From Dactylorhiza incarnata (lineage: Eukaryota; Streptophyta; Magnoliopsida; Asparagales; Orchidaceae): DNA of 64,000 bases. Every line of letters starts with the position of its first letter. The first letter of the stretch is position 1. This document shows, one piece after another, positions 1,481 to 34,528 of the stretch. The translations under genes and the position numbers were made by a program. The notes beneath the pieces were generated by a model. That model had not been told where the DNA came from. It did not search any database and saw only the letters and a list, made by a program, of their open reading frames with translations. Location of the stretch: contig JAWHQI010000328.1 in NCBI GenBank assembly GCA_033032865.1, positions 1,922,001 through 1,986,000 on the forward strand, in the 5' to 3' direction.

Positions 1481-2430
1481 TGATGGACAAAACTATGCTT
1501 GCAAACGATAACGGCAAGTGTACCGTATCGAATGTAGTATAGGTTGTTAAAACAAGGTCGTATTAGACTCGGGGCGGTTGAGTACTCTTACTTCAAGAAA
1601 ATCTCTATTATTTTATCAAATAGAACTTGGGAGTGATTTTGCAAAGGAAAATAAAAATAAGATTAAACTGACGAGTAAAAAGGATAGCACTCGATCTTTG
1701 AATCACCTTGGAGATAAAAATAAGAACAAAGAATAAAAGCGCATTCTCTTAATAAAATAGCTTTGACCGTGGAGATTCCCGAATTATGAACGCATCTCTC
1801 TCGAGGATGCGCTCAACTGAGTTTAGGTTGATCAATCAAACTCTCGTTCTAGAATCGAAACCCCTAAAACTCGCCTTATCGAAGTGAATCCCGCAATTGG
1901 ATTTTACTCCAATCCGGAAGGGTAACGTCTTCCTCTCTCGAGGATTGCATTCTACTCTTTTAATCCTTGAGTGATCGATTTGTCTTACGAGCCTCTCAGC
2001 TAGCTAAAGAACGAAAACAAGAACAAGAATTATATATCGAAAATATAATCTCGTTATCTTAAAATCAAGGGCAAATCTTAAGTATTTTCGAAAAGAGAAA
2101 TAGCAGCAATATATTATTTCATGACTTATATCATTCCTTGGATCATCTCGATCGAGTACTAATAATATTTTAGTTACTCATGGAGATTGGGGAATCAAAA
2201 TAAATAAAAGAGCGCATCATAAAAGAGAGAGGAAATGAGAGAAGAAAAGATCTATTTTATTAAATTACAAAAGAGAGTACAAGCCATGAAATTGAGAATT
2301 ACGACTATTGAAATGAAAATACAATTTGCAAGAAGAAGAAGGATTACAAGACTACTAAAACATGAAAAATAAACATGAAACGAAGCATCTAATCCTAAAA
2401 AAACTCGTCCTGGTTGATCTGGAGAAGCTC

Positions 2431-2440
2431 CCTTTAAATA
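2431..2440 (-). promoter_or_regulatory. TATA box in 3' LTR of A1
   Basis: TATTTAAAGG on the minus strand, conserved in the other LTR at 7171-7180, at the usual place between a repeat-rich U3 and U5. Confidence 0.6.
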
Positions 2441-2451
2441 GGCAGAAGTTT

Positions 2452-2920
2452 GATGTTACATGCCCTTGGTCACGCCCGTGACCAAGGGCGTGTAAGGAGC
2501 GTGATCGATGCTGGTGCGGAGAGGGCGCGTTCTGGCGTAAATGCGAGCATTTCGGCCGTGTCACGCCCTAGGTCACGCCCGTGACCTGGGGCGTGTAATC
2601 TTGAAATATTACTGCTGGCGGGAAACTTTGGCGGGAAGAAGCGCGGGGCGAGTCACGCCCGTGACCTGATGTCACGCCCGAGGTCACGCCCGTGACCTGG
2701 GGCGTGTAACTTTAAATGACGTGGCAGGCGTGCTCTGGATGCTGTGGCGAGTCGCGGCCGTGACACTGGGTCACGCCCTTGGTCACGCCCGTGACCTGGG
2801 GCATGTACTTGGCGAATTCTTCACGGAACGCTCCCTTGTGGAGGAATTGGGTCTGGAACACATCTTTGACTGTCACGCCCTTGGTCACGCCCGTGACCTT
2901 GGGCGTGTACTTTGGATTTT
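2452..2920. repeat. CACGCCC dyad cluster in U3 of A1 (3' LTR)
   Basis: Several imperfect copies of a module of the type CACGCCCTTGGTCACG and its inverse, each able to fold on itself. The copy nearest the TATA box is a 40-nt inverted repeat with one mismatch here and none in the 5' LTR. The short open frames over this stretch on both strands come from the symmetric repeats and are not genes. Confidence 0.8.
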
Positions 2921-3084
2921 TACTCAAAGTGCCCAGAAAACCTGCAAAACATAAAATAAGCTTAAATTAGTTGAAGAAATTAAAAAGGAACAGATTAAAT
3001 AAGAAAATACATATAAATTATATAAATTCAATTTAAAACTATATTAAAATAATACTAAAAGATGAGTACAATAAGTACTTATCA

Positions 3085-3102
3085 AACACCCCCATACTTG
3101 AG
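3085..3102 (-). other. Polypurine tract of A1
   Basis: On the minus strand CTCAAGTATGGGGGTGTT abuts the 3' LTR. TATGGGGGTGTT is the typical Athila/Tat plus-strand primer. Confidence 0.8.
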
Positions 3103-3464
3103 TTTTTGCTATTCCAGAGCAAAAGAGTGAGGGAAGAATTACAAGACATCGATATTATTTCTAATTAACTAAAATTTTATTAAACCATGAATAAGTTAAA
3201 GGCAAATTTTAGGAATTCAAGAATTAAGTCATAAGTTATGTTGATAATTTAAAAAGAGAAATTTGTTTAGCTAACTACTTCTCAAGATAACTATTTAGCA
3301 ATCAAAATTATAGAAATTTTCAAACAAAATTAGATTGAAATTATAGACACTCTAACATAAAAGAAGCTTAAGGAAAAGACACCTACTAAAATACTGCTCT
3401 CTCAATAATTTAGTTTAGGACTAGAAACAATGAAATTGGCTAGGGATGGGTTTGAACGAAATGG

Positions 3465-3742
3465 CAAATGAAGAGTTCTTGAATAGAGGTGATGAATTTT
3501 ATCCTCTCACCTCATTTGAATACGAAATTGTATATGTTTAGGAAAATAATGAATTTTATCCTCTTATTTTCCATGCCATATAATCTTTAAACAATTCTCT
3601 TCAATCAAAAACCCAAAATGTATATGTTTTAGATGTAATGAATTTTATCCTCTTACATCATGACATATAATCTTTTAAATGATTTTGGGTGCATATGTTT
3701 TAGGAAATAATGAATTTTATCCTCTTATTTCCATGACATATG
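3465..3742 (-). other. Four stem-loops with an identical 14-nt loop
   Basis: In the sense (minus) strand each loop reads GAGGATAAAATTCA. Plus-strand positions of stem/loop/stem are: 3486-3492/3493-3506/3507-3513 (GAGGTGA with TCACCTC); 3541-3549/3550-3563/3564-3572 (GGAAAATAA with TTATTTTCC); 3632-3638/3639-3652/3653-3659 (GATGTAA with TTACATC); 3703-3710/3711-3724/3725-3732 (GGAAATAA with TTATTTCC). Outer stems also pair: TATATG with CATATA in the second and third, CATATG with CATATG in the fourth, and ACCCAAAAT (3611-3619) with ATTTTGGGT (3682-3690). Stems differ while pairing is kept, which points to an RNA or cruciform structure. The function is unknown; packaging, dimerisation or protein binding are possibilities only. 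Confidence 0.8.
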
Positions 3743-4161
3743 ATCTTTTTCTATTTTTTTTATTTGCCAACAAAGGGTGAGGTGGGAGAAATACTTCTAG
3801 TTTATAAATTAAACTATTTTGAGAGCAACTTTTTAGTGGAATGAGATTTCCTAAGATCTTAAAGTAAAAAGTGAATATAACAAAAAAAATCTAAAGATGT
3901 TTAGCCAATTTACCACAAAGTGAAGCTATTTAAAATTAAACGGAGAAGTGGTGCTAAATTAACTCTCTAATCGAATTAAAAACATAAAGTGTTCCTTAAA
4001 ACTAAATTACTTCAAATTTAGATTTAACAAATTCTGATCAAATAAAATAATTAGCTAAATTAAAAATGTAGGAATTCTTATAATCGTACCTCAAACTAAA
4101 TTTCTAGAACATTAAAAACAACAAGGCTAGGCATATTTATTATTATTTTATTATTTCTTGA

Positions 4162-4253
4162 ACTTCCCAAGGGCTACCCGGTGAAGGGTTCGCAAGGTAC
4201 TAGGAGCTGTGATGGGAATTCAAGCCCAAAGCGCCCTTTCCAAGAAATTAGAT
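4162..4253. repeat. 92-bp repeat, copy near 3' end of A1 internal region
   Basis: Starts ACTTCCCAAG and ends ATTAGAT. A second copy at 6009-6100 lies on the other side of the ORF, close to the primer site. The two copies have the same length and most positions agree. Confidence 0.8.
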
Positions 4254-4312
4254 TTTTATAAGTTATATATACATATATATATTTTTTAAATAAAAATACA
4301 ACAAAGCTAAGC

Positions 4313-4330
4313 TACACCCCCATACTTAAA
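4313..4330 (-). other. Second polypurine-like tract inside A1
   Basis: On the minus strand TTTAAGTATGGGGGTGTA, nearly the same as the tract at 3085-3102 but 1.2 kb further from the LTR. It is preceded by a GGGACAATG motif like that near the Athila 3' end. It may be a central polypurine tract or a relic of an older element end. Confidence 0.65.
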
Positions 4331-4489
4331 ATTAAACATTGTCCCAATGGTTAAAACTAAGTATGAAAAACACTTGAAAAATAAATTTTTTTAAAAAAAG
4401 AAAAAGAAAAATACATTAAATTAAAGATAAGCAAAGGGTGCCTCCCAAAAGCGCTTTCTTTTTCCCGTCTTTAAGCTAGACGGTTATTG

Positions 4490-5899
4490 TTAGGAAAAAG
4501 GAAATTTAAAAGAGAGGTGGACAGGCAACTCCCTTAATTTGCGCTGAGCCGAATGTGCCGGCATCAGTCGTCTGGCTACTCCTCCGATGTAGTCTTGATT
4601 CTTTTGTTGTCGGTGAGCTTGAAATTGTGAATCCAAATTACCTAAACAAACCTTAGGTAATTTGGAAAGCTGAAGATGAGCGGCAAATGGATCTCTGAAG
4701 ACGTTTGGTTGCAACGGCTCATCATCTACAAGGAAATTATTAGTATCAAAAGAATCAGAATTAAGCGATTCAGAAAATGATTCGCAAGGAGGATGCGCTT
4801 GAGAAAATATATGATTAAGCTCCGGTTGTTCCTTTTCTAAAATAAAATTTTCATTAGGAAAATCTAGTGCATTACCAAGCGGGATAAATTTTTTGGACAC
4901 AAAATTTTCATGAATTTTTGGTTTGATAGAAGAAATTTGCGAATGTTCATGACAAAGAAAATAAAATCCGGGTGAAGTAGGGGAAGAAACTTGTTCTTCT
5001 TCTATTTCATCCGGGGTGCCCATAACTTTAAGAAACTCTTGGTAAAGTAATTTTTCTTCATCTTCGGTAAGAGAAGTTATGGGATTACATGACACTACAT
5101 GTTCCGCCATAACTAAATTATCCAAAGGTGGAGAAAAAATACTAGAAGAAATAAAATTTTCCTCTAAATTTTTGGGGGAAGTCTTTATTTGAATCGGCGG
5201 ATATTCCCCAAAATTAGAGTACGAAGGTTGCGGCGCAAAAGAAGAAGAACAAGAATTCGGATCTAAAGATTTATCTTCATCGCCCCGTAAACTATCTGGG
5301 TGACCTTGCCACCAAGAATAATCTACTTCGGGGCTAGAAGGAAGATTATTAGAAGCCGAAGAATTATTCTCGTGAAAATTAGAAAAAGCACTAGACAAAA
5401 TAATATTTTCCTCTAAATTTTGGGGGGTAGTATCTATATGAGTTTGCGAAATTTCCCCCAAATTAGAGAACGAAGACTGCGGAGTATAAGTAGGAAAACA
5501 AAAATTTGTGTCTAAAGATTTATCTTCGTCGCTCCGAGAATTATCCGGGTGAGCTTGCCACCAAGAATAATCAACTTCGGAACTAGAAGAACAATTATTA
5601 AATGCCAAAAATTTGTTTTCATTATAATTAGAAAAATTATTTTCATCAAAGTTTGAAAAATTATTCTCATTAAAAGGGGAAAAATTATGATCGTAATTAT
5701 TATCAAAATTATTTGCATAATATTGAGGAAAATTATTTTCATAATAATTATTTTGATAATAAGAATGTAAATAACATTTCTCACTTTGATGAGGCGCACC
5801 ACAATAATGACAACTAAATTGGCGTTCTCGCGCGGCTTGTAAAAGATAAAGTTGGTTTCGAAGCTCGGCAACCTTAACGGCCAATTCAGATTCTTTCAT
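4490..5899 (-). CDS. A1 ORF, gag-like protein with Athila-type zinc knuckle
   Basis: 469 codons, intact, the only convincing ORF of A1, starting about 300 nt after the primer site. Residues 30-42 form a knuckle C-x2-C-x3-H-x4-C (C30, C33, H37, C42, with GAPH), one residue shorter than the standard CX2CX4HX4C and like the CGG-x-H form of Athila/Tat gag proteins. Residues 45-100 are rich in Asn, Tyr and Phe (repeats of the ENNFSN type). Two diverged copies of a module of about 78 residues follow, each beginning EVDYSWWQ-HPD and containing DEDKSLD and NLEEN. The rest is acidic; the C-terminus is basic with VARRLMPAH. No capsid fold, protease or polymerase motif is seen. The likely role is RNA binding or packaging for a helper element. 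No family name can be given. Confidence 0.7.
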   Translation of the reverse strand: MKESELAVKVAELRNQLYLLQAARERQFSCHYCGAPHQSEKCYLHSYYQNNYYENNFPQYYANNFDNNYDHNFSPFNENNFSNFDENNFSNYNENKFLAFNNCSSSSEVDYSWWQAHPDNSRSDEDKSLDTNFCFPTYTPQSSFSNLGEISQTHIDTTPQNLEENIILSSAFSNFHENNSSASNNLPSSPEVDYSWWQGHPDSLRGDEDKSLDPNSCSSSFAPQPSYSNFGEYPPIQIKTSPKNLEENFISSSIFSPPLDNLVMAEHVVSCNPITSLTEDEEKLLYQEFLKVMGTPDEIEEEQVSSPTSPGFYFLCHEHSQISSIKPKIHENFVSKKFIPLGNALDFPNENFILEKEQPELNHIFSQAHPPCESFSESLNSDSFDTNNFLVDDEPLQPNVFRDPFAAHLQLSKLPKVCLGNLDSQFQAHRQQKNQDYIGGVARRLMPAHSAQRKLRELPVHLSFKFPFS

Positions 5900-6008
5900 A
5901 ATAAAAAATAAAAAAGTAACAACCTTTACACAGATGAATGGAATTTTGTTTTTTAAAATATTTTTATTATATATATATTTTTGAAAAAGCGAGTTAAATT
6001 AGTCCCGG

Positions 6009-6100
6009 ACTTCCCAAGATCTCCCCGGCGAAGGGTTTGCAAGGTACTAGAGGCTGTGATGGGAATTCAAGCCCAAAGCGTCCTTTCCGAGAATTTAGAT
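6009..6100. repeat. 92-bp repeat, copy near primer site of A1
   Basis: Second copy of the segment at 4162-4253, about 100 bp from the primer site and so within the 5' leader of the element RNA. Confidence 0.8.
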
Positions 6101-6196
6101 TGCGCTTTTTAATTTTTTATTTTTTTAGAAAAAAGGGGGAGAAGAAAGAGAACGATAAAATTAATAAATATTTCTTTTTTCGAAATATCAACCGTG

Positions 6197-6214
6197 TCCC
6201 CGGCAACGGCGCCA
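6197..6214 (-). other. Primer binding site of A1 (tRNA-Asp)
   Basis: TGGCGCCGTTGCCGGGGA on the minus strand, complementary to the 3' end of plant tRNA-Asp (…CCGGCAACGGCGCCA), six bases from the LTR end. This primer is typical of Athila/Tat elements. Confidence 0.9.
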
Positions 6215-6220
6215 AAAACT

Positions 6221-7824
6221 TGATGGACAAAACTATGCTTGCAAACGATAACGGCAAGTGTACCGTATCGAATGTAGTATAGGTTGTTAAAACAAAGTCG
6301 TATTAGACTCGGGGCGGTTGAGTACTCTTACTTCAAGAAAATCTCTATTATTTTATCAAATAGAACTTGGGAGTGATTTTGCAAAGGAAAATAAAAATAA
6401 GATTAAACTGACGAGTAAAAAGGATAGCACTCGATCTTTGAATCACCTTGGAGATAAAAATAAGAACAAAGAATAAAAGCGCATTCTCTTAATAAAATAG
6501 CTTTGACCGTGGAGATTCCCGAATTATGAACGCATCTCTCTCGAGGATGCGCTCAACTGAGTTTAGGTTGATCAATCGAACTCTCGTTCTAGAATCGAAA
6601 CCCCTAAAACTCGCCTTATCGAAGTGAATCCCGCTATTGGCTTTTACTCCAATCCGGAAGGGTAACGTCGTCCTCTCTCGAGGATTGCATTCTACTCTTT
6701 TTATCCTTGAGTGATCGATTCGTCTTACGAGCCTCTCAGCTAGCTAAAGAACGAAAACAAGAACAAGAATTATATATCGAAAATATAATCTCGTTATCTT
6801 AAAATCAAGGGCAAATCTTAAGTATTTTCGAAAAGAGAAATAGCAGCAATATATTATTTCATGACTTATATCATTCCTTGGATCATCTCGATCGAGTACT
6901 AATAATATTTTAGTTACTCATGGAGATTGGGGAATCAAAATAAATAAAAGAGCGCATCATAAAAGAGAGAGGAAATGAGAGAAGAAAAGATCTATTTTAT
7001 TAAATTACAAAAGAGAGTACAAGCCATGAAATTGAGAATTACGACTATTGAAATGAAAATACAATTTGCAAGAAGAAGAAGGATTACAAGACTACTAAAA
7101 CATGAAAAATAAACTTGAAACTAAGCATCTAATCCTAAAAAAACTCGTCCTGGTTGATCTGGAGAAGCTCCCTTTAAATAGGCAGAAGTTTGATGTTACA
7201 CGCCCTTGGTCACGCCCGTGACCAAGGGCGTGTAAGGAGCATGATCGATGCTGGTGCGGAGAGGGCGCGTTCTGGCATAAATGCGAGCGTTTCGGCCGTG
7301 TCACGCCCTAGGTCACGCCCGTGACCTGGGGCGTGTAATCTTGAAATATTACTGCTGGCGGGAAACTCTGGCGGGAAGAAGCGCGGGGCGAGTCACGCCC
7401 GTGACCTGATGTCACGCCCGAGGTCACGCCCGTGACCTGGGGCGTGTAACTTTAAATGACGTGGCAGGCGTGCTCTGGATGCTGTGGCGAGTCGCGGCCG
7501 TGACACTGGGTCACGCCCTTGGTCACGCCCGTGACCTGGGGCATGTACTTGGCGAATTCTTCACGGAACGCTCCCTTGTGGAGGAATTGGGTCTGGAACA
7601 CATCTTTGACTGTCACGCCCTTGGTCACGCCCGTGACCTTGGGCGTGTACTTTGGATTTTTACTCAAAGTGCCCAGAAAACCTGCAAAACATAAAATAAG
7701 CTTAAATTAGTTGAAGAAATTAAAAAGGAACAGATTAAATAAGAAAATACATATAAATTATATAAATTCAATTTAAAACTATATTAAAATAATACTAAAA
7801 GATGAGTACAAAAAGTACTCATCA
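6221..7824 (-). repeat. 5' LTR of A1
   Basis: 1604 bp, partner of 1481-3084. The TATA box is at 7171-7180. A perfect 40-nt inverted repeat (19-nt arms, 2-nt centre) lies at 7196-7235, 16 bp upstream of the TATA. The terminus TGATGAGTAC…TCATCA matches Athila/Tat LTR ends. Confidence 0.9.
7171..7180 (-). promoter_or_regulatory. TATA box in 5' LTR of A1
   Basis: TATTTAAAGG on the minus strand. This copy would drive transcription of the element. The palindromic cluster lies directly upstream (7196-7660). Confidence 0.65.
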
Positions 7825-7829
7825 CCGGC
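7825..7829. repeat. Right target-site duplication of A1 (CCGGC)
   Basis: Matches 1476-1480. Confidence 0.9.
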
Positions 7830-14934: not shown

Positions 14935-15715
14935 AAGTTGTTCATCGAGCATACGTGCTCCGAATCGACTTCCGTCAGTTGCATTAGACTCGTATAATTG
15001 ATACGAGTGCAACGGAACTCGTTTCGTTTCGATCCGAGGTCATATGCAGAATATGACCATTTTGAGTATAGTAGCGCGTCACGACGACGCAGTTTTAGAA
15101 TTTGGAGCATACATGCTCCGAATCGACTTCCGTCAGTTACGTTAGACTCGTATAGTCGACACGAGTGCAACGGAACTCGTTTCGTTTCGATCAGAGGTCA
15201 TTTGGTGAAAGTGACCGTTTTGAGTATCGCAGCGCGTCACGACGACGCAGTTTTAGAATATGGAGCATACATGCTCCGAATTGACTTCCGTCAGTTACGT
15301 TAGACTCGTATAGTCGACACGAGTGCAACAGAACTCGTTTCGTTTCGATCAGAGGTCATTTGGTGAAAGTGACCGTTTTAAGTATCGCAGCGCGTCACGA
15401 CAACGCAGTTTTAGAATATGGAGCATACATGCTCCGAATCGACTTCCGTCAGTTACGTTAGACTCGTATAGTCGACACGAGTGCAACGGAACTCGTTTCG
15501 TTTCGATCAGAGGTCATTTGGTGAAAGTAACCGTTTTGAGTATCGCAGCGCGTCACGACGACGCAGTTTTAGAATATGGAGCATACGTGCCCCGAATCGA
15601 TTTTCGTCAGTTGCTTTAGACTCGTATAGTTGATGCGAGTGCAACGGAACTCGTTTCGTTTCAATCCGAGGTCGTTTTAAGAAAACCACTATTTTGAGTA
15701 ACGTCGAGCGCGACA
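14935..15715. repeat. 158-bp tandem array, about five copies (LARD1 5' LTR)
   Basis: CTCGTTTCGTTTCGATC recurs at 15018, 15176, 15334 and 15492. Each unit holds the dyads GGAGCAT-AC-ATGCTCC and ACTCGT…ACGAGT and the string GCGCGTCACGACGACGCAG. Open frames of about 98 codons result from the repetition; 158 is not a multiple of three, so no conserved protein repeat is implied. The matching array is at about 22620-23400. Confidence 0.85.
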
Positions 15716-16146
15716 ACAACGCCATTTTAAAATGTTGGGTGAACGGACTCGGAATCGACTTCGGATGCTTTCGTTAGCTTCGTAGGGTTGACACGAACAC
15801 AACGGCACCCTCTGCACATTTTAGTGGCGTTTCTGTTGGGAGTTATGATATATATATATACCTATATATGAATATAAATATATGATTATATATATACTAA
15901 TATATGTACATATATTAAGGAGCTTAAAAGCATATTATGGGGAATCCTAAAATCAGAACTAGCGAAAGAAGGGGGAGCGGCTAAACCAGGGGGCGAGCTC
16001 CGGTGGCAGGATCACGAACTGGGCAGGAATTGCGAACCCAAGCTTGATCTTCCTCCCTAGACGAGTGCCCATGGGGCGATGGCCACCTGTGCTTTTGGAT
16101 TCGGAAAAGGAGCTCCGGTGGGAGCTTCCGATTGGCTGGTTCTGGC

Positions 16147-16154
16147 TATAAATG
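16147..16154 (+). promoter_or_regulatory. TATA box of LARD1 5' LTR
   Basis: TATAAATG in GGCTATAAATGGAAGG, with pyrimidine-rich sequence downstream. Conserved at 23834-23841 in the 3' LTR. If it is used, R-U5 is nearly 3.9 kb long. Confidence 0.6.
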
Positions 16155-17649
16155 GAAGGCTTCGCCTTCATTTCTGGGGGGCTCGACGGCAAGGTCCCCT
16201 CTTCTCCATCTCCCCCCCCTCCTATTTCCTCTGCTCTCCCTCTCATGGCAGAAATCTACCTCTTACTCCTTGACCGGGCGCGGATTGGAGTAGAACTACT
16301 CCAAATAGCATGGAGATCGAGCCTCTCTCTCTCTCCCTCTCTCTCCCTCCATGCTCCCTAGCTTCCATTTCGTGTTCTGCGAATTGTTTTTTTTTTAAAG
16401 AGGAAAGAAAAACTAGATAATGAATGAAGTAATGCTATGCATAAGCATGGCTTTGGATCTAATCTCGGCAAACCAAGAGAGGTTTTTCCCTCCTGGTTTT
16501 GGGGATGATCCTCATCCTTTTTTTTGTTTCTTATTGCGATAACATAAATAAATATAAGGGGAGGTGAAGATGCTACAACCGTAATCAAATCATATGAGAG
16601 GGTATTAAATTTTGTCCATCTTCATCTCTCCCTCCTCGTCCCCATGGTAAGCATTATCAAATTGGGGGCTGGTCTTCTTCTCTTTCTCAGTTTAGGATGA
16701 CCTTGAGGATAAGGGAATCATGTCTGAACTTGAAGTGGTAGTGGTGTTGCACATCAGGAATGGCTCAGATAATTTGGGCAATATGTGCGAATCTCTCTCC
16801 ACCTCTTACTCTTTCTCTTCTTCTCTTCTTCGCAGTAAAGTGAGAGGAAATGAGAGAAAGGAGAGCAAACCCGAGGCTAAGAGTTTCTCAACGGGCCCCT
16901 TTAGAAAGTCTATAACTCATCTCCTCTCCTCCCTACTCTTCCTCCTCCCTGGACTCCTGAAACACTAATTACAACTCTCTAATTAATGGTTTGCCCTAAA
17001 CCCCATCTCCCTCCCGCACTCTTTTTCCCCATCTGTGTAAGATTTAATATATATATATATATATATTTTCATGTGTTCTTACACATACATGCACATAAGA
17101 CACTATCATGGGGTTTCACTTGAGAAAGTTGGTGTGCTTAATAAGTGACTTTTTCTGCATGGGAGATATCAAGTGTTATCTATTTGAGCCTCTCCCTTCT
17201 CTGATAGTGATGAATAGGCTGAGTATATAAGAGCTGTAACTAATTCTGGTGGCTATATTCACTTCAAAAATGCTTTACACATTTCTTTCTCTCTCCCACT
17301 CCCTCCCTCTCTTGGTCTTTGGAAAAGAAATAAAGATCATCTCTCCCTCACTCGCCTTTCTCTGTCCATGCAAACTTTAATACATATATATATAGTTACA
17401 TATATTCACATATATATATATGCCCGTACGAGGAGGCTTCACAAGAGATGGTGGATACGCAAAGGCTCTAGTGCAACCCTTGGATGTTTCATATGCTCCT
17501 ACTCTCCCTCTAGGAGCATTACATATGGTGGATGTGCTAATATCGTTCTCTCTCTCTCTCTCTACCTATGTCTATGCAAGCTCTTATATATTTCTATATA
17601 GGAGTTGTAAGCTTGCTCAGGAAGAGGCCTATCTTGGGCTTCATTTGAA

Positions 17650-18420
17650 AAGGTTGGGGGGCTGCTCCTTGTGGAGTTGGACTGCAGGTAGGGTGATGTG
17701 GGGCTGCTCCTTTTATTGTTGATTTGGAGTTGCTCCTTTTGTGGTTGATTTGGAGTTGCCTCCTTTGTTGTTGGTTTGGGGGCTGCTCCTTGTGGAGTTG
17801 GACTGCAGGTAGGGTGATGTGGGGCTGCTCCTTTTATTGTTGATTTGGAGTTGCTCCTTTTGTGGTTGATTTGGAGTTGCCTCCTTTGTTGTTGGTTTGG
17901 GGGCTGCTCCTCGTGGAGTTGGACTGCAGGTAGGGTGATGTGGGGCTGCTCCTTTTATTGTTGATTTGGAGTTGCTCCTTTTGTGGTTGATTTGGAGTTG
18001 CCTCCTTTGTTGTTGGTTTGGGGGCTGCTCCTTGTGGAGTTGGACTGCAGGTAGGGTGATGTGGGGCTGCTCCTTTTATTGTTGATTTGGAGTTGCTCCT
18101 TTTGTGGTTGATTTGGAGTTGCCTCCTTTGTTGTTGGTTTGGGGGCTGCTCCTTGTGGAGTTGGACTGCAGGTAGGGTGATGTGGGGCTGCTCCTTTTAT
18201 TGTTGATTTGGAGTTGCTCCTTTTGTGGTTGATTTGGAGTTGCCTCCTTTGTTGTTGGTTTGGGGGCTGCTCCTTGTGGAGTTGGACTGCAGGTAGGGTG
18301 ATGTGGGGCTGCTCCTTTTATTGTTGATTTGGAGTTGCTCCTTTTGTGGTTGATTTGGAGTTGCCTCCTTTGTTGTTGGTTTGGGGGCTGCTCCTTGTGG
18401 AGTTGGACTGCAGGTAGAGT
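17650..18420. repeat. 121-bp tandem array, about 6.3 copies (LARD1 5' LTR)
   Basis: Units contain GGGGCTGCTCCTT, TGGAGTTGGACTGCAGG and TGGAGTTGCCTCCTTTG. Copies are nearly identical, and the matching array at 25340-26105 has the same number, so the array predates the insertion. Confidence 0.9.
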
Positions 18421-18992
18421 GATGTGGGGCTGCTCCTTTCCTTGATTGATTTGGAGTTGCCTCTTTTATTGTATTATTGGGGATTGTTTTATTGTGGCTG
18501 TTTTGCCTTGGGGCTGCTCTTACCCTTGTTAGCTGAGGCTGTTTGCATTAGGGGCTGCTGTCATAAAAACCTGTTGCTGCTACTATCAATTAATGTTGGG
18601 GCCTTCCTTGTGGATTGAGAGTTGTTGATATACTTTTGGTAGATGGGCTTTGCTGTTACTACCTCCTTCCCATATTCTCTAACATTTCTTCTCTCTCTAC
18701 CCCTTCACGAATTCTGATGTTGATTAAAGGTGGAAATACTCCCTCTTCTTTTGATATGGTACCAATACCAATGGAAATGTTATATAGATAACTTGGGTTT
18801 GAACACCAAGCATCCAAATGGTTGACGGGAGCCTATGAGGATGGCTCGATTTAATTGCCAGCCGGGTTAAAATAGTGGTACCTTCTCGGATGAAGATATG
18901 TTAAGCTTATATAGAGTTCGTCTTCTCTCCTCCTACAGGTTGCGGGTGGATATATTGCTGATCTTAAAGGGCGCCTCTTTTCTTCTCTTATG

Positions 18993-19262
18993 AAAATGTT
19001 GCCTTCGAGAAATAATTCCTACGGGAATGAAATGCTGCCTTCGAGAAATAATTCCTACGGGAATGAAATGTTGCCTTCGAGAAATAATTCTTACGGGAAT
19101 GAAATGTTGCCTTCGAGAAATAATTCCTACGGGAATGAAATGCTGCCTTCGAGAAATAATTCCTACGGGAATGAAATGTTGCCTTCGAGAAATAATTCCT
19201 ACGGGAATGAAATGTTGCCTTCGAGAAATAATTCCTACGGGAATGAAATGTTGCCTTCGGGA
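18993..19262. repeat. 36-bp tandem array with tetraloop hairpins (LARD1 5' LTR)
   Basis: Seven copies of a 36-bp unit. Each carries ATTCC-TACG-GGAAT, at 19014, 19050, 19086 (ATTCT variant), 19122, 19158, 19194 and 19230. As RNA each forms a 5-bp stem closed by C-UACG-G, a member of the very stable UNCG tetraloop class. Because 36 is a multiple of three, several frames are open on both strands; I do not treat them as genes. Confidence 0.85.
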
Positions 19263-20029
19263 ATGTGACAAGGGATAAAATCGATGGCCTATGAGTTTTA
19301 CTCTAAGGCAACCCGCACGATGGACGGTCTGGGAGGGCAACCCGTGCGAAACTAATAGAACTACGTGGGTCTGAGGCCGTATGCAGGACGATACGGAGTA
19401 CGTAGGCGGTGGTCATGGGAAGACCGCCTCGGCCCAATAAGAATTCCAGATATCCCCTCCCTTATAAATGTTATATTATGTTTGTTTGATAGCAAGGGTT
19501 GGATTCTCTTCGTGGTTCTAATAACTTGTCTTTAGCACAAGTGACAGGTGCAGATGAGGGACAACACCCATGTGTGGATGAAGCTATGGAGCAAACTACG
19601 TCAGGTATAAGTTTGTTAAGCCGCATCTCCTTTTACTGTGCCCTATCTTAGGGTATATAAATATATAATGGCAATAAAGCCTTGATGGATAGGATTTAAT
19701 GTGGCGGCGAAATCGATATTATTCATACAAGTTTTGAAATTATGGTTTCTGTGATAATTAATCTTCCGCTATAAACCATGTCTTCCGCTAAGGGTTACAA
19801 AGCGCACCCTTTAATAATGTCTTCCGCTAAAATACTGCTTCCTTACTCTGTTGGTGTGTAGTGACTTTCGCTTAACACCACCCCTAGGCGTGACATCGGA
19901 GTGTTCAAGGAAAAAGGGTTGGAGAAGCTAGTACCTCCACCCCTCGGGATCGCTTCGGCGTCGTGTTAAAGGGTGGTGTGCGATAAGATCCCCCGGTCGG
20001 TCCGTCGATTTGGGAGGGGGGGTCTTACA

Positions 20030-22456: not shown

Positions 22457-25400
22457 TGTAACATCCCGACTTCGAAAAAGGGGTCTAGCCGGTTCAGTTG
22501 AACCCTTGGAGGAATCTAGGCCGGGTCATTAGGCAATCACGACCCGACCTTCACCACCTAGAGGTGGTCAGTTAGAGAAATGACTGTTTTGGGCAGCATC
22601 GTGCCTCGCCACAACGTCAAAGTTGTTCATCGAGCATACGTGCTCCGAATCGACTTCCGTCAGTTGCATTAGACTCGTATAATTGATGCGAGTGCAACGG
22701 AACTCGTTTCGTTTCGATCCGAGGTCATATGCAGAATATGACCATTTTGAGTATAGTAGCGCGTCACGACGACGCAGTTTTAGAATATGGAGCATACATG
22801 CTCCGAATCGACTTCCGTCAGTTACGTTAGACTCGTATAGTCGACACGAGTGCAACGGAACTCGTTTCGTTTCGATCAGAGGTCATTTGGTGAAAGTGAC
22901 CGTTTTGAGTATCGCAGCGCGTCACGACGACGCAGTTTTAGAATATGGAGCATACATGCTCCGAATCGACTTCCGTCAGTTATGTTATACTCGTATAGTC
23001 GACACGAGTGCAACGGAACTCGTTTCGTTTCGATCAGAGGTCATTTGGTGAAAGTGACCGTTTTAAGTATCGCAGCGCGTCACGACGACGCAGTTTTAGA
23101 ATATGGAGCCTACATGCTCCGAATCGACTTCCGTCAGTTACGTTAGACTCGTATAGTCGACACGAGTGCAACGGAACTCATTTCGTTTCGATCAGAGGTC
23201 ATTTGGTGAAAGTAACCATTTTGAGTATCGCAGCGCGTCACGACGACGCAGTTTTAGAATATGGAGCATACGTGCCCCGAATCGATTTCCGTCAGTTGCT
23301 TTAGACTCGTATAGTTGATACGAGTGCAACGGAACTCGTTTCGTTTCAATTCGAGGTCATTTTAAGAAAACCACTATTTTGAGTAACGTCGAGCGCGACA
23401 ACAACGCCATTTTAAAATGTTGGGTGAACGGACTCGGAATCGACTTCGGATGCTTTCGTTAGCTTCGTAGGGTTGACACGAACACAACGGCACCCTCTGC
23501 ACATTTTAGTGGCGTTTCTGTTGGGAGTTATGATATATATATATACCTATATATGAATATAAATATATGATTATATATATATACTAATATATGTACATAT
23601 ATTAAGGAGCTTAAAAGCATATTATGGGGAATCCTAAAATCAGAACTAGCGAAAGAAGGGGGAGTGGCTAAACCAGGGGGCGAGCTCCGTTGGCAGGATC
23701 GCGAACTGGGCAGGAATCGCGAACCCAAGCTCGATCTTCCTCCCTGGACGAGTGCCCATGGGGCGATGGCCACCTGTGCTTTTGGATTCGGAAAAGGAGC
23801 TCCGGTGGGAGATTCCGATTGGCCGGTTCTGGCTATAAATGGAAGGCTTCGCCTTCGTTTCTGGGGGGCTCGACGGCAAGGTCCCCTCTTCTCCATCTCC
23901 CCCCCCCCCTCCTATTTCCTCTGCTCTCCCTCTCATGGCAGAAATCTACCTCTTACTCCTTGACCGGGCGCGGATTGGAGTAGAACTACTCCAAATAGCA
24001 TGGAGATCGAGCCTCTCTCTCTCTCCCTCTCTCTCCCTCCATGCTCCCTAGCTTCCATTTCGTGTTCTGCGAATTGGTTTTTTTTTAAAGAGGAAAGAAA
24101 AACTAGATAATGAATGAAGTAATGCTATGCATAAGCATGGCTTTGGATCTAATCTCGGCAAACTAGGAGAGGTTTTTCCCTCCTGGTTTTGGGGATGATC
24201 CTCATCCTTTTTTTTGTTTCTTATTGCGATAAAATAAATAAATATAAGGGGAGGTGAAGATGCTACCACTATAATCAAATCATATGAGAGGGTATTAAAT
24301 TTTGTCCATCTTCATCTCTCCCTCCTCGTCCCCATGGTAAGCATTATCAAATTGGGGGCTGGTCTTCTTCTCTTTCTCAGTTTAGGATGACCTTGAGGAT
24401 AAGGGAATCATGTCTGAACTTGAAGTGGTAGTGGTGTTGCACATCAAGAATGGCTCAGATAATTTGGGCAATATGTGCGAATCTCTCTCCACCTCTTACT
24501 CTTTCTCTTCTTCTCTTCTTCACAGTAAAGTGAGAGGAAATGAGAGAGAGGAGAGCAAACCCGAGGCTAAGAGTTTCTCAACGGGCCCCTTTAGAAAGTC
24601 TATAACTCATCTCCTCTCCTCCCTACTCTTCCTCCTCCCTGGACTCCTGAAACACTAATTACAACTCTCTAATTAATGGTTTGCCCTAAACCCCATCTCC
24701 CTCCCTCACTCTTTTTCCCCATCTGTGCAAGATTTAATATATATATATATATTTTCATGTGTTCTTACACATACATGCACATAAGACACTATCATGGGGT
24801 TTCACTTGAGAAAGTTGGTGTGCTTAATAAGTGACTTTTTCTGCATGGGAGATATCAAGTGTTATCTATTTGAGCCTCTCCCTTCTCTGATAGTGATGAA
24901 TAGGCTGAGTATATAAGAGTTGTAACTAATTCTGGTGGCTATATTCACTTCAAAAATGCTTTACACATTTCTTTCTCTCTCCCACTCCCTCCCTCTCTTG
25001 GTCTTTGGAAAAGAAATAAAGATCATCTCTCCCTCACTCGCCTTTCTCTGTCCATGCAAACTTTAATACATATATATATAGTTACATATATTCACATATA
25101 TATATATGCCCGTACGAGGAGGCTTCACAAGAGATGGTGGATACGCAAAGGCTCTAGTGCAACCCTTGGATGTTTCATATGCTCCTACTCTCCCTCTAGG
25201 AGCTTTACATATGGTGGATGTGCTAATATCGTTCTCTCTCTCTCTCTCTCTCCCTATGTCTATGCAAGCTCTTATATATTTCTATATAGGAGTTGTAAGC
25301 TTGCTCAGGAAGAGGCCTATCTTGGGCTTCATTTGAAAAGGTTGGGGGGCTGCTCCTTGTGGAGTTGGACTGCAGGTAGGGTGATGTGGGGCTGCTCCTT

Positions 25401-27719
25401 TTATTGTTGATTTGGAGTTGCTCCTTTTGTGGTTGATTTGGAGTTGCCTCCTTTGTTGTTGGTTTGGGGGCTGCTCCTTGTGGAGTTGGACTGCAGGTAG
25501 GGTGATGTGGGGCTGCTCCTTTTATTGTTGATTTGGAGTTGCTCCTTTTGTGGTTGATTTGGAGTTGCCTCCTTTGTTGTTGGTTTGGGGGCTGCTCCTC
25601 GTGGAGTTGGACTGCAGGTAGGGTGATGTGGGGCTGCTCCTTTTATTGTTGATTTGGAGTTGCTCCTTTTGTGGTTGATTTGGAGTTGCCTCCTTTGTTG
25701 TTGGTTTGGGGGCTGCTCCTTGTGGAGTTGGACTGCAGGTAGGGTGATGTGGGGCTGCTCCTTTTATTGTTGATTTGGAGTTGCTCCTTTTGTGGTTGAT
25801 TTGGAGTTGCCTCCTTTGTTGTTGGTTTGGGGGCTGCTCCTTGTGGAGTTGGACTGCAGGTAGGGTGATGTGGGGCTGCTCCTTTTATTGTTGATTTGGA
25901 GTTGCTCCTTTTGTGGTTGATTTGGAGTTGCCTCCTTTGTTGTTGGTTTGGGGGCTGCTCCTTGTGGAGTTGGACTGCAGGTAGGGTGATGTGGGGCTGC
26001 TCCTTTTATTGTTGATTTGGAGTTGCTCCTTTTGTGGTTGATTTGGAGTTGCCTCCTTTGTTGTTGGTTTGGGGGCTGCTCCTTGTGGAGTTGGACTGCA
26101 GGTAGAGTGATGTGGGGCTGCTCCTTTCCTTGATTGATTTGGAGTTGCCTCTTTTATTGTATTATTGGGGATTGTTTTATTGTGGCTGTTTTGCCTTGGG
26201 GCTGCTCTTACCCTTGTTAGCTGAGGCTGTTTGCATTAGGGACTGCTGTCATAAAAACCTGTTGCTGCTACTATCAATTAATGTTGGGGCCTTCCTTGTG
26301 GATTGAGAGTTGTTGATATACTTTTGGTAGATGGGCTTTGCTGTTACTACCTCCTTCCCATATTCTCTAACATTTCTTCTCTCTCTACCCCTTCACGAAT
26401 TCTGATGTTGATTAAAGGTGGAAATACTCCCTCTTCTTTTGATGTGGTACCAATACCAATGGAAATGTTATATTGATAACTTGGGTTTGATCACCAAGCA
26501 TCCAAATGGTTGACGGGAGCCTATGAGGATGGCTCGATTTAATTGCCAGCCGGGTTAAAATAGTGGTACCTTCTCGGATGAAGATATGTTAAGCTTATAT
26601 AGAGTTCGTCTTCTCTCCTCCTATAGGTTGCGGGTGGATATATTGCTGATCTTAAAGGGTGTCTCTTTTCTTTTCTTATGAAAATGTTGCCTTCGAGAAA
26701 TAATTCCTACGGGAATGAAATGCTGCCTTCGAGAAATAATTCCTACGGGAATGAAATGTTGCCTTCGAGAAATAATTCCTACGGGAATGAAATGGTGCCT
26801 TCGAGAAATAATTCCTACGGGAATGAAATGCTGCCTTCGAGAAATAATTCCTACGGGAATGAAATGTTGCCTTCGAGAAATAATTCCTACGGGAATGAAA
26901 TGTTGCCTTCGAGAAATAATTCCTACGGGAATGAAATGTTGCCTTCGGGAATGTGACAAGGGATAAAATCGGATGGCCTATGAGTTTTACTCTAAGGCAA
27001 CCCGCACGATGGACGGTCTGGGAGGGCAACCCGTGTGAAACTAATAGAACTACGTGGGTCTGAGGCCGTATGCAGGACGATACGGAGTACGTAGGCGGTG
27101 GTCATGGGAAGACCGCCTCGGCCCAATAAGAATTCCAGATATCCCCTCCCTTATAAATGTTATATTATGTTTGTTTGATAGCAAGGGTTGGATTCTCTTC
27201 GTGGTTCTAATAACTTGTCTTTAGCACAAGTGACAAGTGCAGATGAGGGACAACACCCATGTGTGGATGAAGCTATGGAGCAAACTACGTCAGGTATAAG
27301 TTTGTTAAGCCGCATCTCCTTTTATTGTGCCCTATCTCAGGGTATATAAATATATAATGGCAATAAAGCCTTGATGGATAGGATTTAATGTGGCGGCGAA
27401 ATCGATATTATTCATACAAGTTTTGAAATTATGGTTTCTGTGATAATTAATCTTCCGCTATAAACCATGTCTTCCGCTAAGGGTTACAAAGCGCACCCTT
27501 TAATAATGTCTTCCGCTAAAATACTGCTTCCTTACTCTGTTGGTGTGTAGTAACTTTCGCTTAACACCACCCCTAGGCGTGACATCGGAGTGTTCAAGGA
27601 AAAAGGGTTGGAGAAGCTAGTACCTCCACCCCTCGGGATCGCTTCGGCGTCGTGCTAAAGGGTGGTGTGCGATAAGATCCCCCGGTCGGTCCGTCGATTT
27701 GGGAGGGGGGGGTCTTACA
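22457..27719 (+). repeat. 3' LTR of LARD1
   Basis: 5263 bp, collinear with 14772-20029, including the 158-bp array (22620-23400), TATA (23834-23841), 121-bp array (25340-26105) and 36-bp array (26681-26950, hairpins from 26703 to 26919). Small length differences sit in CT, AT and C runs. Confidence 0.88.
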
Positions 27720-34510: not shown

Positions 34511-34528
34511 TGGCGCCGTTGCCGGGGA
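34511..34528 (+). other. Primer binding site of Athila element C (tRNA-Asp)
   Basis: TGGCGCCGTTGCCGGGGA, nine bases after the LTR end and identical to the A1 site. Confidence 0.92.

Follow-up and report, generated by a model that had tools for sequence, protein, structure and literature searches.

A near-constant loop on covarying stems in the 3' non-coding part of an LTR retrotransposon family of Dactylorhiza incarnata

What keeps one loop sequence unchanged on neighbouring hairpins whose stems differ from one another? The question is raised by a stretch of 64,000 nucleotides from the orchid Dactylorhiza incarnata (contig JAWHQI010000328.1, positions 1,922,001 to 1,986,000; hereafter the window), in which the 14-nt loop GAGGATAAAATTCA was found in four exact copies on the minus strand (3493-3506, 3550-3563, 3639-3652 and 3711-3724), with no further exact copy elsewhere in the window. 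The earlier note had described four hairpins with this loop on perfect stems of 7, 9, 7 and 8 bp, together with an outer helix that changes from TATATG/CATATA to CATATG/CATATG, and both descriptions are confirmed in the sequence:

3703..3732, minus strand: arm 1, 8-bp stem GGAAATAA/TTATTTCC with the canonical loop
3737-3742 with 3692-3697, minus strand: outer helix of arm 1, CATATG/CATATG
3632..3659, minus strand: arm 2, 7-bp stem GATGTAA/TTACATC, outer helix TATATG/CATATA
3682-3689 with 3612-3619, minus strand: further outer helix of arm 2, CCCAAAAT/ATTTTGGG
3541..3572, minus strand: arm 3, 9-bp stem GGAAAATAA/TTATTTTCC, outer helix TATATG/CATATA
3486..3513, minus strand: arm 4, the terminal one, 7-bp stem GAGGTGA/TCACCTC; the 3' polypurine tract (PPT) follows about 400 nt later

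Folded singly, the hairpins have z-scores of -3.2 to -4.1, and 0, 0, 2 and 0 of the 200 dinucleotide shuffles made for each of the four folded as well. The further outer helix of arm 2 is shorter on both sides in relatives of the L136 type. Tandem duplication alone was rejected as an origin of the array, as the stems differ yet stay complementary.

The element that carries the array

The array belongs to an LTR retrotransposon for which two LTRs, a target-site duplication (CCGGC at 1476-1480 and 7825-7829), a primer-binding site and a PPT were all found:

1481..7824, minus strand (sense = minus): whole LTR element of 6.3 kb without detected pol domains
6221..7824, minus strand: 5' LTR
6198..6213, minus strand: primer-binding site GGCGCCGTTGCCGGGG, starting at 6213
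4490..5899, minus strand: 469-aa ORF, the only long sense ORF, with one CCHC-like motif CHYCGAPHQSEKC
4314..4327, minus strand: internal PPT-like tract AAGTATGGGGGTGT
3087..3099, minus strand: 3' PPT AAGTATGGGGGTG, adjoining the 3' LTR
1481..3084, minus strand: 3' LTR

The two LTRs differ by 16 substitutions in 1604 nt (1.0% divergence), which bears out the earlier description of the element as young, and its designation as non-autonomous agrees with the lack of detected pol domains. The word AAGTATGGGGGTG is present twice on the minus strand, starting at 4327 and 3099, and the two copies bracket the four hairpins, as expected from the reported position between two polypurine-like tracts. We place the family provisionally as Athila-like Ty3/gypsy, by motif rather than by tree, on the primer-binding-site word GGCGCCGTTGCCGGGG, which is of the Athila/Tat type; the RT piece of a relative is similar to plant proteins of no stated lineage. 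No Pfam family scored above the cut-off for the 469-aa ORF, no homologue was found at E 0.001 among 4142 candidates, and BLASTP against the gag of a relative gave no significant match.

Several other features were noticed in passing. The 469-aa ORF has two copies of a VDYSWWQxHPDS motif, and related pieces occur in several relatives. The LTRs are rich in near-palindromic GTCACGCCCGTGACC-like repeats (2460-2920 and 7200-7660 of the window). Another primer-binding site of the same type lies on the plus strand at 34512, with a leader reading ..TTAATTTTATTA. Three tandem-repeat blocks recur between 14947-19263 and 22632-26951 at an offset of about 7.69 kb, representing either a long duplication or an LTR pair.

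Copy number, covariation and the enclosing helices

The host genome, 3.27 Gb in size, contains 20,355 copies of the 14-mer GAGGATAAAATTCA and 13 of a reversed control, which excludes chance as the reason for the 14-mer's abundance, and the core made up of the loop with TRA and TYA, at up to two mismatches, was counted 27,563 times against 169 for its control. Viral contigs contain the exact 14-mer at a chance-like level, with one match each among the 80 listed of at least 120 matches. The second closing pair of the exact cores in the genome reads TAA..TTA in 10,152 and TGA..TCA in 8,403 cases, compared with 149 for TGA..TTA and 198 for TAA..TCA, and is therefore matched in 18,555 of 18,902 cores (98.2%; odds ratio about 2,900). 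Closers of the G.U type were not commoner than those of the A.C type (149 vs 198), and because there is no G.U excess, sense RNA and single-stranded DNA are left unseparated as the folding form.

Loci were fetched around loops and reduced to 51 distinct ones, overlapping loci and L151, L170 and L173 being removed by an identical 140-nt key; with the window these make 52 sequences, none of which contains the exact loop in antisense. One of the 51, L144, consists of a single loop that lacks a stem. When up to two mismatches in the loop are allowed, the sample holds 118 hairpins, of which 100 have the exact loop; loops that read exactly GAGGATAAATTCCA (the degenerate arm) are excluded from this count. 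Among these hairpins there are 54 distinct arm pairs, in which 89.4% of the cells at the first seven positions are paired, whereas arms shuffled between hairpins pair in 76.7 ± 1.2% of cells (maximum 80.7% in 1000 shuffles) and arms slid by one position in 46.6%. An alignment of 26 hairpins, chosen by hand after omission of L144 and of 27 among the other 53 distinct hairpins, most of these decayed, has a covariation score of 0.511 against 0.262 for shuffled and at most 0.307 for slid arms. Of its eight stem pairs, six show changes on both sides and the other two are constant. The number of cells paired, the double-change cells and the covariation score exceed all 500 shuffles, and the other two of the five measures lie within them, namely the number of double-change pairs, reached by 130 of the 500 shuffles, and that of further pair types, reached by 442. 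Together with the genome-wide counts, the 118 hairpins sustain the earlier claim of a near-constant loop on free but complementary stems, and the stems covary under the kind of test that the earlier note had proposed. Substitutions per site in a sub-family of 30 copies rise from 0.013 for loops to 0.039 for stems and 0.110 for flanks, the loop figure being biased low as the copies were found via the exact loop.

The hairpins had been reported as an array. They do exist as such, but they are the arms of one larger domain of about 450 nt, which reaches past the limits first given to about 3385-3837 and is closed by two outer helices:

3791..3837, minus strand: closing helix P0, 5' strand
3759..3770, minus strand: second closing helix P1, 5' strand, core UGGCAAAU
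3462..3472, minus strand: second closing helix P1, 3' strand, core AUUUGCCA
3385..3429, minus strand: closing helix P0, 3' strand

P0 is the longest outer helix, contains GCTCTC/GAGAGC, and covaries. Cognate P0 strands in 12 families pair with a mean of -30.5 kcal/mol, compared with -24.6 (sd 1.2) for strands swapped between families, with 0 of 2000 swaps as good, and with -11.0 for strands paired with shuffled sequence, although a strand's own partner is the single best of the 12 in only three families; a further three of the 15 families (the window, L125 and L169) were skipped by the anchor rule. A wider set, comprising the 36 of 51 arrays (L144 excluded) with both anchors, gave means of -31.6 kcal/mol for cognate and -27.7 for swapped strands, with the anchor probably wrong in L133, L166 and L182. 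The shorter P1 (TTGGCA../..TGCCAA) surrounds the array and is present in several families, but is less certain than P0, because the best enclosing helix rarely lay beyond the shuffles. The fold of 3381-3842 in the window has a z-score of -5.8, against -3.9 for the inner part alone, and because both strands fold well, folding does not decide the strand.

Carriers, position and the limits of loop constancy

The 3' PPT could be identified for 33 arrays; the last exact loop precedes it by 403-432 nt in 18 of these and by 455-573 nt in the other 15. In three of those 15 (L132, L140 and L175) a degenerate arm, GAGGATAAATTCCA, with a lost stem and an altered loop, was found about 415 nt before the PPT. 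Elements chosen by their PPT show arms or degenerate arms 400-418 nt before it in 7 of 12 cases. An array placed between two PPT-like tracts was observed in the window and in the nine sampled loci that contain both search words.

The earlier note had tied the array to a non-autonomous element. The window element indeed shows no detected pol domains, but relatives that bear gag-pol carry the hairpins too. One array-bearing relative (L134) has gag, RT, RNase H and integrase domains directly upstream of its array, in three ORF pieces separated by stops, with a protease match below the Pfam cut-off; the Ty3/gypsy domain order was found in this relative alone, and none of these domains was detected in the window element. 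The RT and integrase upstream of the L139 array are over 6 kb away and separated from it by other sequence, so that their belonging to the array is uncertain. We read the ORFs upstream of the L134, L139 and L140 arrays as integrase C-termini; two of these were submitted to Pfam and neither scored. A Pfam search with three ORF pieces gave no family above the cut-off. A long open frame precedes the array in a variant-loop relative as well, and among the ORFs upstream of loops none was noticed to be env-like in the 3-kb loci, which are not whole elements. Among the matches listed for the RT piece of a relative, the highest identities, up to 86%, were to proteins of Platanthera, an orchid, and the top bit score was to a Tanacetum protein at 71%. 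The Gag ORF pieces of two array-bearing coding relatives (L222 and L244) have only three and two cysteines and neither contains a CCHC knuckle, in contrast to the 469-aa ORF of the window element with its one motif. At the other extreme, the shortest elements (L129, L132, L142, L146 and L148) have a primer-binding site about 1.1-1.3 kb before the first loop. The domain is thus retained where coding regions have been lost, which indicates a function in cis. As a separate observation, the leaders of L129, L132, L146 and L148 contain TTGCAGGT words about 130-170 nt after the primer-binding site that resemble a 3' splice site.

The loop had been called invariant, and this is true within the window element but not in every relative. 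A variant loop, GATGATACAATTCA, with two changes from the canonical one, sits on a perfect stem in L225 and L227 and has, with its closing bases, 447 exact copies in the genome, which makes it an amplified lineage. In loci of the L139 type (six read) the first arms have a stem but other, short loops, and in those of the L125 type (three read) the first arms differ also; the terminal arm has the canonical loop in both types, all of these loci having been found via an exact loop. The earlier note had held that loops varying freely with amplification unaffected would speak against a loop-recognised structure, and such variation was found in part, with the two-base variant in at least 447 copies and other loops on some arms in two clades. 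A sample independent of the loop was drawn as 20 of 6,198 exact 3' PPT sites, all from one contig; a loop with at most three mismatches was found in 12 of the 20, L225 and L227 with the variant loop among them, and the exact loop in 10, with no such loop in the remaining eight (L229, L231, L232, L234, L237, L238, L239 and L242). The loop is therefore constrained strongly, not absolutely. By eye, the eight elements have another 3' stretch in common around GGGCAAG..TTGATGGATTTCTTTGGAGGC at a similar place, which is perhaps a second structured domain.

Possible roles of the domain

The element RNA probably uses the fold as a recognition handle, since the fold has been kept while the stem letters changed in step. 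We tentatively favour, at a probability of about 0.42, a cis-acting RNA domain whose loop is recognised by a protein provided in trans, the most likely purpose being genome selection or packaging. The near-constant loop, the changing stems, the fixed orientation and place, and the occurrence in both coding and non-coding carriers fit such recognition. Its place would be the non-coding part towards the 3' end of the genomic RNA in an Athila-like Ty3/gypsy family, where the long P0 and the less certain P1 would hold one to four arms that present the same 14-nt loop; the stems would serve as scaffold and the loop would be the recognised part, above all on the terminal arm, which lies about 400 nt before the PPT. 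The binder might come from autonomous partners, for example Gag or another RNA-binding protein encoded by the element or the host, and its binding would mark full-length RNA for particle assembly, whereby elements without gag-pol could be copied. What the sequences show is the structure with its covariation, copy number and position, and its occurrence in coding and non-coding relatives alike; we infer RNA as the working form, a protein as its binder and packaging as the purpose.

Packaging is ranked first because it is the step at which a non-autonomous RNA has to be distinguished from that of the host, and because there is a retroviral precedent for purines exposed in loops, as in GAGGA here. 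The Psi hairpins of MoMLV and HIV-1 show looped purines. A purine loop is likewise part of the MMTV packaging signal (PMC8096270), and the predicted domain resembles such signals in consisting of genomic-RNA stem-loops with exposed purines. It differs from them in lying by the 3' PPT instead of in the 5' leader, in its 14-nt loop on up to four arms and in the two Gag pieces without a CCHC knuckle. Packaging signals are usually found near the 5' leader and not by the 3' PPT, which counts against the packaging role, as do the amplification of the changed-loop lineage (at least 447 copies) and the eight loop-less elements among the 20 sampled by PPT. A retrovirus-like zinc-knuckle contact is not available from the two coding relatives examined, because neither of their Gag pieces has the knuckle.

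The main rival to packaging, although an unlikely one, is a CTE-like nuclear-export element, the loops of which would bind a host export factor or adaptor and bring unspliced genomic RNA to the cytoplasm. The 3' non-coding position and the multi-stem architecture are like those of the CTE or RRE, and export would be equally needed by coding and non-coding elements, as observed; we know of no plant export element of such a kind, which counts against it. We rank export second after packaging. CTEs directly recruit NXF1-NXT1, and the essential part of the CTE measures 150-175 nt (PMC7551171); the RRE is a structured element of about 350 nt (PMC4488727). The domain shares with the MPMV CTE and the HIV-1 RRE a structured RNA of several stems, but here identical loops stand on several arms and there is no Rfam match. 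A role in reverse transcription is quite improbable; the hairpins would form, and be bound, in DNA that is single-stranded, either as minus-strand cDNA or as a displaced flap, between the PPT-like tracts that bracket the array in the window and the nine sampled loci. The Watson-Crick stems are possible on either strand, both of which fold well, and the G.U closers show no excess, as this role would allow; however, P0 spans about 450 nt, and hairpins of 7-9 bp are weak when formed in single-stranded DNA.

It is very improbable that the apical GAUAAAA contacts UUUUAUC about 50-60 nt after the primer-binding site and so joins the RNA ends. TTTTATC is present in six of seven leaders of canonical-loop elements, with nine matching bases in the window element, but the sole variant-lineage leader among the nine distinct leaders examined reads TTTTATT, without the expected compensating change, and in an A+T-rich region of related leaders the match may be due to chance. 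If a host DNA-binding or small-RNA factor had its site here, at the DNA level or as a linear 20-nt target, this would suit the most constant stretch TRAGAGGATAAAATTCATYA, which is 20 nt long; both sides of the R/Y pair within this stretch change together in 98% of exact copies, and further stem pairs do likewise, neither of which a linear target needs, and such a site is effectively excluded as the sole cause. Quasi-palindrome correction can make arms match, and template switching of this kind could keep arms complementary without selection, but a mutational by-product predicts free loops, whereas the loop is the most constant part here and the arms vary; position and closing helices would also be left unexplained, and we regard this origin as effectively excluded.

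A cis-acting RNA domain of a retroelement is a known kind of structure, and it is the repeated-loop design that is unusual. The kissing-loop dimerisation domain of Ty1 (PMC5454406) is likewise a structured LTR-retrotransposon RNA, but it is 5' terminal, and the loop here is not self-complementary beyond AAUU. With self-complementarity limited to this word, loop kissing was rejected or at least weakened, and the dimerisation suggested in the earlier note finds little support as a loop-loop contact. Retrozymes (PMC4918200) are comparable as plant non-autonomous retroelements with a conserved RNA fold; they differ in having hammerhead ribozymes, none of which was found in the window at Rfam thresholds. 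The whole window matched no Rfam family at the gathering threshold, and a permissive search of 3050-4400 gave three weak matches (lowest E 0.54), all below the gathering score. No such structure was seen among the papers listed by searches of an open-access library, and as most subscription papers lay outside this search, absence from print is not established.

A bolder extension of the packaging role, which we consider a long shot, is that the loop is an address tag common to a retrotransposon community. Coding elements would give the replication proteins, and the 469-aa zinc-knuckle protein of the non-autonomous ones (CHYCGAPHQSEKC) would give the RNA binding lost by the knuckle-less Gag and bind the loop on both. 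Retrotransposons would then divide the labour among themselves, and the tag would be, as far as we know, the first RNA recognition signal to be defined for an LTR retrotransposon of plants. To our knowledge, the ways in which such elements distinguish their own RNA from the mRNA of the host, and in which protein-less elements get copied, are largely open questions. For these, a structure of about 450 nt with a near-constant loop, of which tens of thousands of variants occur naturally, provides a concrete RNA for study, with the amplified loop-variant lineage as a natural mutant series. By its structure the domain also provides a marker for this repeat family, which diverges fast in other respects. 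Between about 2.3 and 15.1 kb of one contig (C42), clusters of loops were observed every 4.2-4.3 kb, as if elements stood there in tandem.
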